Shown here piece by piece: positions 4,685 through 21,806 of a stretch of DNA of 21,812 bases. Position 1 is the first letter of the stretch. Every line of letters starts with the position of its first letter. The stretch is from the IMG/VR virus record IMGVR_UViG_3300043775_000601, positions 1 through 21,812 of that record; one strand, given 5' to 3'. The DNA comes from a virus. The position numbers and the translations under genes are program-made. The notes under the pieces are model-generated. The model was given only the letters and a program-made list of their open reading frames with translations, was not told where the DNA came from and did no database searches.

Positions 4685-5031
4685 TGAAACTCAACGAATA
4701 TCAGACTGAGGCCCAGTCCTTCGCAGTCAACGATGACCTCATGCACTTCACCTTCGGCCTCCTTGAGGAAGCTGGTGAAGCTGCTGGTGTCCTGAAGCGC
4801 GTGTTTCGAGAGGACGATGGCTACTGGGACGATTACACCAACTACGACTACGGGATGTCCTACATGGCCCGCGACAAGCTGATCATGGAGCTTGGGGACA
4901 TCCTCTGGCACGTGGCCCTTGTCGCCAACAACCTTGGCTACTCTCTTGAGGCGGTGGCTGACCTGAACCTCCAGAAGCTTGAGTCCCGCAAGCAGCGCGA
5001 CATGATCAAGGGGTCTGGAGATGACCGTTGA
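4684..5031 (+). CDS. MazG-like nucleotide pyrophosphohydrolase
   Basis: 115 aa all-alpha protein of the MazG/NTP-PPase superfamily. The metal-binding EXXE-12-28-EXXD signature is seen as LLEEAGEAAG early in the protein and ELGDILWHV about 50 residues later, followed by the usual helix NLGYSLEAVADLNLQKLESR. Members hydrolyse (d)NTPs or related nucleotides to the monophosphate and pyrophosphate. In phages they may limit misincorporation, supply dNMPs or lower (p)ppGpp signalling; the substrate here cannot be decided. The ATG at 4684 shares bases with the upstream stop (TGATG). The insert FREDDGYWDDYTNYDYG between the two metal motifs is acidic and aromatic. Confidence 0.88.
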   Translation: MKLNEYQTEAQSFAVNDDLMHFTFGLLEEAGEAAGVLKRVFREDDGYWDDYTNYDYGMSYMARDKLIMELGDILWHVALVANNLGYSLEAVADLNLQKLESRKQRDMIKGSGDDR

Positions 5032-5107
5032 ACTGATCCCCTTGGGGCTTCTCGCGGTGGGCATGGGCCTGTGTGTCTACATCCTCCACGACATCTTCAC
5101 GACCTAA
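5021..5107 (+). CDS. 28-aa membrane peptide
   Basis: Translates as MTVELIPLGLLAVGMGLCVY followed by ILHDIFTT: one hydrophobic helix with a short charged end. AAGGGG (5009-5014) gives a good ribosome site, and the start overlaps the MazG-like gene by 11 bases. Phages of this type often encode such single-pass micro proteins, but the function is unknown. The next leader begins at 5108 directly after its stop, which supports this as a real gene boundary. Confidence 0.6.
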   Translation: MTVELIPLGLLAVGMGLCVYILHDIFTT

Positions 5108-5127
5108 CCCTCCACAAACGGAAACAG
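5108..5127 (+). promoter_or_regulatory. Recurring gene leader, copy 2 (before primase)
   Basis: CCCTCCACAAACGGAAACAG sits between the stop of the micro membrane gene and the primase ATG (5129). The first nine bases are identical to copy 1 at 3111. It includes a weak ribosome site (GGAAA). Confidence 0.5.
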
Positions 5128-5128
5128 T

Positions 5129-6760
5129 ATGCAGACTAGCGACCACGAAGGCTCTGTCTTTCTGAGGCACGAGGCCTGCGACAACTGCGGATCAAGCGAT
5201 GCGAAAGGACTCTACTCAGATGGACACACTCACTGCTTCTCCTGTGGAACTACTCGACCCGGAGACTCGCCGGGACATCACGATGAAGCTGACGTTGGCC
5301 TCAATGGGAGCGCAGCAGGGAAGGCTGGAGGACGCCCGCTACTGGACGGACAGGGCGGCAAAGTCTCTGGCCGAGTTCAAGCAATCCCAAACCGTAGACT
5401 AGACGAGTCTACCTGTGCCCTCTGGGGCTATGAGATAGGCGAGTACAACGGCAAGCCCTGCCACATCGCCAACTACCGCGATGCTACGGGCAAGCCCATC
5501 GCCCAGAAGATACGTCTCGCCAACAAGGAGTTCACTTGGACAGGCTCATCGAAGGAGGTGGGCCTGTATGGCGAGTGGCTGTGGAACAAGGGGAAGCGTC
5601 TGGTCATCACTGAAGGTGAACTGGACGCCCTCTCCATGTCCCAGTGCATGGGCAACAAGTGGCCTGTGGTCTCGGTGCCTAACGGTGCCCAGGGTGCCAC
5701 CAAGGCCATCAAGAAGCGCTACGACTACTTCCAGAACTTTGAGGAAGTCATCCTCATGTTCGACATGGACGAGCCGGGGCAGAAGGCTGCGGCTGAGTGT
5801 GCCGAACTGCTTCCTGTAGGCAAGGTCAAGATAGCCTCCCTGCCACTGAAAGACGCCAATGAGATGTTGGTGGCTGGACGGGCAGAGGAGCTTATGCAGG
5901 CCTTCTGGAATGCCAAGGCTTACCGCCCTGATGGCCTCCTGACCACCGCAGACCTCAAGGACGCTATCCTCGTCGCAGATGACAAGGGTCTCAGCTTTCC
6001 ATTCTCAGGTCTCAACGACAAGCTGGGCGGAATATTTCCGGCCGCACTTTACACAGTTACCTCAGGTTCTGGTCTGGGCAAGACCACCTTCATGCGTGAG
6101 TTGGCCTACCAGCTTCATGTGACCCACCAGAAGAAGGTGGGCATGCTGATGCTGGAGGAGACCACCAAGCGCACTGTCAGGTCCCTGGTGGGCCTGCACC
6201 TCAACAAGAACATCGACAGCGACCTGTCCAACACCTCGCCTGAGGAGATGGCAGGAGCATTCACTGAGCTATTCGGCGCGCGCGACATCGCACTCTACGA
6301 CCACTTCGGGTCTACCGAGGTGGACAACATCCTAGCCCGCATCCGGTACATGGCCCGCGCCATGGACTGCACCCACATCGTCCTCGACCATCTCAGCATC
6401 CTCATATCTGGCCTCCAGATGGACGATGAGCGACGAATGATCGACGTGGCGATGACCAAGCTCCGCACCCTCGTCCAAGAGACAGGCATCACGCTGTTCC
6501 TTGTGTCCCACCTCAAGCGCCCCTCAGGCGACAAGGGACATGAAGACGGCGCGGTGGTTGCCCTTGGCCAACTCCGTGGCTCCCACGCCATCGCCCAGCT
6601 TTCTGATGCCGTCATAGGCCTCCAGAAGCCGCAGGATGACCCAATGGGAGACGCCACGGAACTGGTGGTCCTGAAGAACAGGTTCACCGGGGAGCGTGGG
6701 TCTGCGGGTGTGCTGCACTACTCAAGAGAAACCGGACGCCTCACTGAGAGCGTCTTCTAA
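5129..6760 (+). CDS. Primase-helicase, T7 gp4-like
   Basis: Unwinds DNA at the fork and makes primers. 543 aa. The zinc-binding domain has C17, C20, C36 and C39, the exact spacing of T7 gp4. A short linker (about 41-90) follows, then the primase core with TOPRIM acids E162 (ITEGELDALS) and D212/D214 (MFDMDEPG). The RecA-like helicase has Walker A SGSGLGKTT with K318, Walker B IVLDHLSIL with D420, the H4-like LRGSHAIAQLSDAVIGLQ and the arginine-finger region KNRFTGERG. All catalytic parts appear intact. In T7 an internal start gives a helicase-only form; here no in-frame ATG, GTG or TTG is seen between the zinc domain and residue 144. The linker DNA seems to carry a second gene in the +1 frame (5220-5402). 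Confidence 0.96.
   Translation: MQTSDHEGSVFLRHEACDNCGSSDAKGLYSDGHTHCFSCGTTRPGDSPGHHDEADVGLNGSAAGKAGGRPLLDGQGGKVSGRVQAIPNRRLDESTCALWGYEIGEYNGKPCHIANYRDATGKPIAQKIRLANKEFTWTGSSKEVGLYGEWLWNKGKRLVITEGELDALSMSQCMGNKWPVVSVPNGAQGATKAIKKRYDYFQNFEEVILMFDMDEPGQKAAAECAELLPVGKVKIASLPLKDANEMLVAGRAEELMQAFWNAKAYRPDGLLTTADLKDAILVADDKGLSFPFSGLNDKLGGIFPAALYTVTSGSGLGKTTFMRELAYQLHVTHQKKVGMLMLEETTKRTVRSLVGLHLNKNIDSDLSNTSPEEMAGAFTELFGARDIALYDHFGSTEVDNILARIRYMARAMDCTHIVLDHLSILISGLQMDDERRMIDVAMTKLRTLVQETGITLFLVSHLKRPSGDKGHEDGAVVALGQLRGSHAIAQLSDAVIGLQKPQDDPMGDATELVVLKNRFTGERGSAGVLHYSRETGRLTESVF
5220..5402 (+). CDS. Probable nested small protein inside the primase gene (+1 frame)
   Basis: 60 aa from ATG 5220 (an in-frame ATG at 5199 would add 7 residues). 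The product starts MDTLTASPVELLDPETRRD and continues as two amphipathic helices, DITMKLTLASMGAQQG and RLEDARYWTDRAAKSLAEFK. It looks like a real soluble helical protein, whereas the primase frame over the same bases encodes a Gly/Ala/Asp-rich linker with no conserved motif. AAAGGA lies 10 bases upstream of ATG 5220. It ends about where the conserved primase core resumes. Function unknown. T7 also has out-of-frame ORFs (4.1, 4.2) within gene 4, but no homology is claimed. Confidence rests on protein-likeness alone. Confidence 0.6.
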   Translation: MDTLTASPVELLDPETRRDITMKLTLASMGAQQGRLEDARYWTDRAAKSLAEFKQSQTVD

Positions 6761-19371: not shown

Positions 19372-19620
19372 GTGAACAAGATGCCCCCTAACGATACCAT
19401 CGACACCGCAGAGCGTCTTGTTCGCTTGGAGACCAAGTTGGATTTTCTCATCAAGTCCATGGAGAACTTACCCCCCAGCCCTACGTGCCTTAAGAAACAC
19501 GAAGAGCTTGAGGAGCGGGTAACTGCCATGGAGAAGTTCGTGAACAGGGCTGTGGGTGCGCTTATCGCAGTCAACATCCTCATCACTGTCTTCGCCTACA
19601 AGCTGAAGGGCTTCATATGA
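19372..19620 (+). CDS. Coiled-coil membrane protein, XhlA-like
   Basis: 82 aa (GTG 19372; ATG 19381 is a possible alternative). DTAERLVRLETKLDFLIKSM is a heptad helix, a PPSP break and KKHEELEERVTAMEKF follow, and AVGALIAVNILITVFAY is a C-terminal membrane anchor. That build matches the XhlA/hemolysin-related lysis proteins and some small spanin-like proteins. It probably assists the neighbouring holin. One Cys (TCLKK) lies in the middle. ATGA overlap with the next gene. Confidence 0.65.
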   Translation: MNKMPPNDTIDTAERLVRLETKLDFLIKSMENLPPSPTCLKKHEELEERVTAMEKFVNRAVGALIAVNILITVFAYKLKGFI

Positions 19621-21806
19621 CCAACATCCCCAAGAAGCCTTTGGCTGTCTCAAGGGCCAAGAAGAAGCTCCCGCTTGAGATTGACTGGGGCAAAGGCATC
19701 CCCAAGGACCGCCTGCGCTACATCAATGCTCGTGAAGAGGCCCTCATCAAGGCTAACCGCTCTACCACGGCTGAACGCAGCCATATGGGCGTGAAGGCCT
19801 ACGCAGATGACAGTGCCTCCTCCAAGGGTGTCTCCCGCCCAGGCTCTGGGACCACTACAGGCACCACCACGACCAAGACTTCGACTGGTGGAGGGGCCAG
19901 TACAGGCCAAGGTGGACAGAGCAGGGGTCCTTCAGGTGCTGGGCAGGGGCCTAATTCGGCTTCGTCTAGCTCAAAGTCTCCCTCAAGCTCGTCTTCTGGC
20001 TCAAAGTCCCCCTCAAGCTCCTCCACAAGCACTGGAGGTGGCTCAAAGTCACCCAATGCCGCCGCACAGGCTGCATCGAACAAGCTGAATGGCTACTCAG
20101 GTGCTGCCCGTCCGACTACCAACGCTGGTCCGTCCACGCTTGGCGGTAACAAGGCCCCTAACATGGCGGCTTCCTACGCCTCCCAGAAGCTCAATGCGAC
20201 TGCGGGTGCTTTGAAGGCTGGGCAGCAGCCTCAGTCTATTCAGGGCCTCATCAATTCGGGCTCTACAGCCCCCAATGCCGCCGCACAGAACGCCTATGAC
20301 AGGCAGCGTATGGCTGCGATGTCTCAGCGCTACGACCCTGTAGTCAAAGGCGCTGCCCCTAATCCAAAGGGTGCAATGCCTGGTGCCGCTCCCGGTGACT
20401 ATGTACGGACAGCGCTAGGCTACAACGTCAATAGAATGGACAATCTGGGTGTCACAGACGCTAATCGCATCGTGGATGGCTTCAACAATCTGAAGCAGTT
20501 CAAGGATGTGTCTTATGACCCTGATGGTGTCCAGAAAATCAAGGATGGCTTAGGGTACACGCCTGTAGGCATCCGCACCAACAACCCTGGAAACATTCTG
20601 AACAGCAAGTGGCAGAGTGAAGTCCCCGGATACGCTGGGCCTGTGAAGTCACCCAACGGGCTGACCTATGCCTCCTACACTGATCCTCGGTGGGGACTCG
20701 CAGCACAGAACGAGTTGCTTGGTCGCTACTACGATGGCGGGCGCACCACGATTAACGAAGTGGTGGATCGCTATGCCCCAGTGGATGAGAACAATTCCGC
20801 TGCTGCTAACAGGTCCTACAAGGACCACTTGTCAGCCTCCACTGGCTGGGACCCTAATCAGGCTCTGTCCCGCGAACAGGTACAGTCTCTAGGTCCCTAC
20901 AAGACTTCATTTGAGAACGGTGGCGCTCTGTTTGCTGGTGGACCCTTCGGTGGAACTCCAAGCCCGACCAGTCTCGCCTCCACCCCCAAAAGCCCTCTGC
21001 AATCCGCAATGGACTCTTGGAACCCTCCGCAGTCTTCCGCTATCCCAGCCCCGACCAGCACAGGCATGCTGCCTAACACAGCGCGTGACCCCGCTGCTGC
21101 CCGCATGGCAGGCCTACAGCAGGCACCCTCGCAGAACATGCAGCAGCCTACAGCGCCGCCCGCAGGCCTTCCCGGCTTCACGCCACAGAGTGGCTTCGCG
21201 CCGCAGGGTCTCCCCAGCAACTTCAGGGGAACTGCTGGTGTCGCAAGTACGGGCAATGTCCCCGGATGGGGCTACTCCCCGTCTGCGGATTACAGCGCCC
21301 CCTCTGCTGGCACCTCGCTGGCCTCCAGCACCCCCGAATCCTACAGCCCCCAAGCTGGCCCTGGTGACGAGGTATACTCAGAGAACCCAATGCAAGGCTC
21401 TCAGAACCCCATGCAGGAAGGGGAGAACCCTCAGGTCAAGCGTGACCGCCAGCAGAAGTACGCCTCTCGTGGCGCTACGATTGGCGGCATCGTCGCTGGT
21501 CCTCTTGGAACTGTAGTAGGCGGAACGCTTGGCTGGCAGATGGGCAAGACCCCTCCACGTCAGCGGCAGGCCATTGCGTCTAACCCCCAGGCACTCACAG
21601 CCAACGTCAAGTCCATCAACGACATGGTGGAGGAGCGTGGCGGCAAGGGGAACCCGCAGATGCAAGTAACGGAAGCTGGCTTCAGGGATGTCCTCACGAA
21701 CCCCGCAAAGGTTACCAAGGAACCTGAGAAGTACACGACCTTGGAACAGATGCTCGCTGCCTTGGCGCAGGGCGTTGATCCTGAAACAGGCAAGCCCATC
21801 ACTTAG
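19617..21806 (+). CDS. Virion protein with lysozyme-like domain and glycine-zipper segment
   Basis: 729 aa, complete. Residues 1-60 are basic. About 75-165 is a low-complexity Ser/Gly/Thr region with repeated SKSPSSSSS units, and SPNAAAQAA-type repeats (KSPNAAAQAA, KAPNMAASYA, TAPNAAAQNA) follow. Around 315-430 is a phage structural lysozyme/transglycosylase-type domain: GIRTNNPGNI (from ~318), YASYTDPRWGLAAQNELL, TINEVVDRYAPVDEN (YAP at ~385). A Pro/Gln/Ser-rich segment leads to ATIGGIVAGPLGTVVGGTLG (~617-640), a glycine-zipper likely to enter membranes. It probably acts in virion ejection through peptidoglycan and membrane, like T7 gp16, rather than as a free endolysin. ATG 19617 overlaps the preceding TGA. 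The low-complexity region is strongly Ser-codon biased (TC/AG). Confidence 0.8.
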   Translation: MTNIPKKPLAVSRAKKKLPLEIDWGKGIPKDRLRYINAREEALIKANRSTTAERSHMGVKAYADDSASSKGVSRPGSGTTTGTTTTKTSTGGGASTGQGGQSRGPSGAGQGPNSASSSSKSPSSSSSGSKSPSSSSTSTGGGSKSPNAAAQAASNKLNGYSGAARPTTNAGPSTLGGNKAPNMAASYASQKLNATAGALKAGQQPQSIQGLINSGSTAPNAAAQNAYDRQRMAAMSQRYDPVVKGAAPNPKGAMPGAAPGDYVRTALGYNVNRMDNLGVTDANRIVDGFNNLKQFKDVSYDPDGVQKIKDGLGYTPVGIRTNNPGNILNSKWQSEVPGYAGPVKSPNGLTYASYTDPRWGLAAQNELLGRYYDGGRTTINEVVDRYAPVDENNSAAANRSYKDHLSASTGWDPNQALSREQVQSLGPYKTSFENGGALFAGGPFGGTPSPTSLASTPKSPLQSAMDSWNPPQSSAIPAPTSTGMLPNTARDPAAARMAGLQQAPSQNMQQPTAPPAGLPGFTPQSGFAPQGLPSNFRGTAGVASTGNVPGWGYSPSADYSAPSAGTSLASSTPESYSPQAGPGDEVYSENPMQGSQNPMQEGENPQVKRDRQQKYASRGATIGGIVAGPLGTVVGGTLGWQMGKTPPRQRQAIASNPQALTANVKSINDMVEERGGKGNPQMQVTEAGFRDVLTNPAKVTKEPEKYTTLEQMLAALAQGVDPETGKPIT

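Follow-up and report, generated by a model that had tools for sequence, protein, structure and literature searches.

The question raised by this locus is whether a short open frame inside a phage primase/helicase gene encodes a protein of its own or is only the shadow of the gene that surrounds it. The window, which is the whole stretch of 21,812 nucleotides that was analysed, is a virus record of 21.8 kb whose genes form a T7-like set. The open frame is housed by a gene (5129..6760, + strand) for a T7 gp4-like primase/helicase of 543 aa, which matches phrog_239 in a profile search (E = 2.9e-180) and carries the Pfam domains Helic-prim_T7_N, Toprim_2, and DnaB_C. The original prediction, made from the letters of the window, held that the linker of this protein doubles as a second gene rather than casting a shadow, and three lines of evidence now support this reading well: conservation in the +1 frame, the composition of its codons, and a confidently predicted fold. 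Positions 5220-5402 very probably constitute a protein-coding gene lying entirely inside the primase/helicase gene, in its +1 frame, with purifying selection acting on the protein across its clade.

The linker comprises primase codons 41-80 (5249..5368, + strand), between the zinc finger and the catalytic core, and the nested gene uses its +1 frame. No Pfam match covers the primase residues between the zinc finger (residues 13-46, itself a weak match) and Helic-prim_T7_N, which begins at residue 81. The primase-frame reading over the bases of the nested ORF (TTRPGDSPGHHDEADVGLNGSAAGKAGGRPLLDGQGGKVS) is rich in Gly, Ala, Asp, and Ser, which bears out the earlier description of a Gly/Ala/Asp-rich linker devoid of motifs. 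Judged from its sequence, the primase frame across the nested gene is a poorly constrained spacer.

The clade, a group of uncultured T7-like phages, was assembled from IMG/VR and includes six relatives of the window, with primase identities to it of 99% (L001), 84% (L002 and L003), 85% (L004 and L005), and about 80% (L031); the primase genes of L002 and L003 are identical to each other, as are those of L004 and L005. The +1 frame is open in all six. The nested product is 98-100% identical to that of the window in L001-L003 and 45-58% identical in L004/L005 and L031, so that three divergent alleles are represented by the products of the window (LDPETRRDITMKLTLASMGAQQGRLEDARYWTDRAAKSLAEFKQSQ), L004 (LDADTARDVQVKLALAAELRSQGKTVAAAEWLEAAQRSLAEFKASQ), and L031 (VDAETARDIQIKLKLAAEARKQGRAGDAAYWLGRAHASMEEFRQFQ). 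Among these three, the primase linkers diverge much more than the nested products. The pattern that would speak for a shadow, namely stops or free variation in the +1 frame beside a conserved primase linker, was looked for in these relatives, which keep the +1 frame and vary in the linker. Over 5213-5420, the window and L002 are identical for 208 nt, and the primases downstream are only about 73-80% identical, which points to a recent exchange of the nested-gene module. Because recombination explains this identity, it is not used here as evidence of constraint.

Outside the clade the gene appears to be restricted. More distant T7-like primases have no nested ORF of the window type, and no homologues of the nested protein were found in GTDB genomes or, beyond the clade, among related virus records. 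A tblastn search of 50,697 phage records revealed no stand-alone homologues, barring one marginal match at 36% identity in two mycobacteriophage records (E = 10).

The extent of the gene can be defined from the relatives. The ORF listing gives an open frame of 67 aa (5199..5402, + strand) at frame offset +1 within the 543-aa primase ORF, and the predicted +1 ORF of 60-67 aa is therefore real: 67 aa when read from 5199 and 60 aa (MDTLTASPVELLDPETRRDITMKLTLASMGAQQGRLEDARYWTDRAAKSLAEFKQSQTVD) when read from ATG 5220, with a TAG stop at 5400-5402. The two starts had been proposed as alternatives, and it is the one at 5220 that stands. In the primase frame this ATG falls on the Asp and Gly codons of SDGHT, a zinc-finger motif. 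The window and L001-L005 all retain it; L031 is compatible with it, its start being seen in part only since the L031 sequence begins at the TG inside the ATG. The seven-codon extension from ATG 5199 (5199..5219, + strand) is probably not part of the gene, because L004 has no ATG there and the 21 nt are variable in comparison with the conserved 180 nt that follow: against L001 and L002, 4 of the 21 nt before 5220 differ, and 4 and 0 of the 180 nt after it, respectively. A candidate Shine-Dalgarno sequence, AAGGA (5205..5209, + strand), lies 10 nt before ATG 5220, with a duplex energy of -5.3 kcal/mol, stronger than that of the primase itself (-3.5 kcal/mol). The relatives have comparable sites 9-10 nt upstream, GGAG in L001/L002 (-6.1 kcal/mol) and AAGGTG in L004 (-3.9 kcal/mol). 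This site is of moderate, ordinary quality and no more than supportive, because 22% of the window's ATGs score equally well. At the other end, the ORF had been described as stopping where the conserved primase core resumes; instead, its last ~10 codons overlap the first conserved residues of the core (GRVQAIPNRR). The stop is not conserved, and in L031 a TGG occupies its position and the ORF continues to 89 aa.

Two further observations concern the neighbourhood upstream. Directly before the primase lies a 28-aa ORF (5021-5107, + strand) with a hydrophobic stretch (MTVELIPLGLLAVGMGLCVYILHDIFTT); a similar ORF is present in L004, and L002 has a different hydrophobic ORF at that place. Around 5117-5195, in the primase start region, the window and L004 are near-identical in nucleotides, even at third positions (codons 5-22 differ at one base), and far more invariant than in the remainder of the primase gene; no RNA fold or repeat accounting for this invariance was found.

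The openness of the +1 frame was rejected as evidence for a gene. When primase amino acids were held fixed and synonymous codons were permuted, the frame stayed open in 91% (L004), 88% (L031), and 43% (L001) of shuffles. Conservation was instead evaluated with a substitution-placement null, in which ungapped linkers were anchored on primase landmarks, the observed substitutions were re-placed randomly on sites with the same base, and the result was scored with BLOSUM. Conservation in the +1 frame exceeded this null with P = 0.0001 (window/L004), 0.0012 (window/L031), and 0.0001 (L004/L031), in three pairwise tests that share branches, the collections searched having yielded three divergent alleles. 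The corresponding values for the primase frame were 0.72, 0.0005, and 0.72, so that the primase linker is conserved above chance only between the window and L031, and the +2 frame gave P = 0.36-0.45. Between the window and L004, primase third positions carry 71% of the substitutions downstream, as against 30% in the linker (Fisher P = 7e-8). A linker evolving neutrally could also show such a depletion of third positions, and it is therefore the +1 score that decides. Calibration on 339 pairs of other T7-like primases gave P ≤ 0.01 for the +1 frame in 3.5% of pairs and for frame 0 in 94%; the calibration pairs with +1 P ≤ 0.005 all involved two contig groups carrying another nested gene or close relatives of it. 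Together with this control and a second one on T7 gene 4.1, described below, the null reveals purifying selection on the protein read in the +1 frame.

Codon composition was examined with log-odds trained on the other long ORFs of the window. The linker of the window scores +12.8 in the +1 frame and -1.6 in the primase frame; the lowest difference of this kind across 699 training windows was -4.6. The +1 frame wins over primase codons of about 21-65, and past the linker the primase frame has a strong lead. A similar preference is seen in L031 (12.7 in +1 vs -3.6 in the primase frame), and the L004 linker is neutral. Elsewhere in the window, a 729-aa ORF (19617-21806) has two low-complexity stretches (19917-20070 and 20937-21060) in which the +2 frame outscores the ORF's own, an excess that is probably an effect of composition.

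The two helices foreseen in the product were borne out by AlphaFold2 modelling. Run on four sequences, it returned a two-helix hairpin with a mean pLDDT of 84 and core blocks at 95-97, the helices of the window product lying at residues 14-32 and 36-58. The L004 product, 45% identical and folded alone, gave the same two helices (pLDDT 88). The product is thus predicted to be an antiparallel helical hairpin of 55-60 residues, TPR-like in its form. A profile search, which had been suggested as a check, matched no named family convincingly and gave a weak resemblance to the TPR helices of kinesin light chain; a match of the window product to phrog_1537 (E = 0.039) was dropped, being absent for L001, L004, and L031. 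The best Foldseek matches are generic hairpins, including the NTPR of PICH, MIT domains, and small uncharacterised phage proteins, with nothing below E = 0.38. The product resembles TPR and MIT hairpins in its predicted two helices, but it is a single hairpin and has no significant fold match.

Several other explanations for these patterns have to be weighed. The frame might be open by chance through G+C-rich codon usage, its similarity among relatives reflecting nothing but shared primase DNA. The synonymous shuffles show that openness is to be expected, and T7 gene 4.1, at the matching site, looks exactly like such a frame; however, the +1 residues exceed the null in all three comparisons while frame 0 fails in two of them, codon composition goes over to the +1 frame in the linker, and the window and L004 products are predicted to share one hairpin, which makes a shadow ORF unlikely. 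Alternatively, an RNA structure, promoter, or replication signal could limit change in the linker, with +1 similarity as a by-product. In its favour stands the near-invariant stretch directly 5' (~5117-5195). The linker itself has the opposite pattern, since the window and L004 differ at 45% of its bases and yet keep the +1 residues; moreover, no unusual RNA structure was found, fold stability being ordinary (z = 0.11 and 1.21), and the conserved 5' motif is found at a single place in the window. We consider an element of this sort very improbable.

The remaining alternatives concern how the frame is translated. A programmed +1 frameshift would append the hairpin to the C-terminal side of the primase zinc finger, with no start of its own, and the +1 frame is indeed open 5' of ATG 5220 as far as a stop at offset 34. 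But reading the sequence by eye disclosed no recognised slippery site, and the conservation of ATG 5220 in the window and L001-L005, together with variation in the seven codons before it and not in those after it, leaves this explanation with very little to recommend it. The earlier note had also suggested that the nested ORF might exploit coupling of translation. In a form of this modelled on 4B in T7, its reading would serve mainly to bring ribosomes to an internal helicase-only start, with a product of no relevance. In the phages T7, T3, and SH1, the end of the nested ORF and the ATG of 4B share an overlap of four bases. From primase codon 2 to 143, by contrast, the window and its relatives L001 and L002 are devoid of in-frame ATG, GTG, and TTG codons, which contradicts this form of coupling: ribosome delivery of the T7 kind is inapplicable because the start to be reached is missing. 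The product sequence is also conserved, which coupling would not need, and this possibility is the most remote of those considered.

The preferred reading remains a nested gene with its own start. Internal initiation at ATG 5220 on the primase mRNA would yield the 60-aa product, which would therefore appear alongside the replication proteins. To go by its fold and size, the favoured role is that of a small binding or accessory protein that touches a host or replication protein, although we hold this assignment with low confidence. The other role suggested at the outset, a regulation of priming, is conjecture.

A second nested family emerged from the 339-pair control, in which two more contig groups were flagged (L042/L054/L056/L068/L071 and L076/L081/L087/L099), both with primase third positions depleted of substitutions in the linker. 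The +1 frame of the linker matches phrog_20887 in about ten contigs (L042, L054, L056, L068, L071, L076, L081, L087, and L092), with E-values of 3.4e-10 to 1.3e-5 in the genome searches; L032 matches weakly (0.005), and L099 has no match. L042, L076, and similar contigs thus belong to phrog_20887, with DUF7230 matched only weakly by the +1 product. When re-tested with more shuffles, the +1 frame reached P-values down to 0.0002, some pairs being not significant. These genes resemble that of the window in occupying this linker in the +1 frame and in their +1 selection signal. Their product is a different one, a protein both short and basic (NP[VLIM]AKAL...SKK.YSR) in which no resemblance was seen to the window's helical protein; the latter matches neither the phrog_20887/DUF7230 profile nor the NP.AK motif. 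They also have a stand-alone relative, whereas none was found for the window's protein: in Sinorhizobium phage phiM19, phrog_20887 is a separate 46-aa gene, gp276 (L168:298-438; E = 7e-33). Neither nested family is present in the Roseobacter, Rhizobium, and Pelagibacter phage isolates examined. Because the two nested families at this one site are unlike, nested genes were acquired repeatedly; on the evidence of these sequences, the primase linker has hosted them more than once.

Annotation easily overlooks genes that lie out of frame within conserved phage genes, and selection tests back few of them; in the present case, conservation is stronger in the hidden frame than in the visible primase frame. 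The presence of unrelated nested genes at one site of an essential replication gene, in different lineages, offers a testable system for how essential enzymes acquire passenger genes, and it adds unannotated small proteins whose synthesis would be expected to accompany that of the replisome. A broader proposition, which we advance tentatively and rate at somewhat less than an even chance, is that small genes have repeatedly landed in the spacer that separates the zinc finger from the catalytic core in T7-like primases. At least two unrelated ones, the helical hairpin of the window and the phrog_20887/DUF7230-like gene, would have been captured there out of frame, and the primase would read through a tolerated spacer, the linker of the essential enzyme being the overprint and the passenger gene the original.

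Among known systems, a close one is T7 gene 4.1 (NC_001604 11635-11757, phrog_20075), which likewise lies within the gp4 primase/helicase gene in the +1 frame and starts 70 nt into it, the offset of ATG 5199 in the window. Gene 4.1 differs in its length of 40 aa, in having no seen similarity to the window product, and in its end, where ATGA joins its stop to the start of 4B, an arrangement that the window lacks. It matches phrog_20075 with E = 1.8e-33 in a profile search, and the nested products of the window, L001, L004, and L031 do not match that profile, so that homology with the window gene was rejected. Gene 4.1 (L137:636-758) was tested against its T3, SH1, S147, and SH-Kp 152234 relatives (L140, L141, L143, L144); these pairs were negative in the +1 frame (lowest P = 0.08) and constrained in frame 0, and in Seera the corresponding frame contains a stop. 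Gene 4.1 may be a shadow ORF. The library of papers searched yielded general works on overlapping genes, and none that dealt with DUF7230 or with the overlap of gene 4.1.

A wider comparison is with the overprinted viral genes, such as the phiX174 overlaps, treated in a review of overlapping viral genes that gives a codon-usage criterion for the older frame (PMC8227390). The window gene shares with them two proteins, the nested one predicted, from one stretch of DNA on one strand, an internal +1 overlap that is open inside another gene and kept in relatives, and a restricted distribution. The difference is that here, by the codon-usage criterion (PMC8227390), it looks as if the nested frame, rather than that of the enclosing primase, is the older or better adapted one in the linker.
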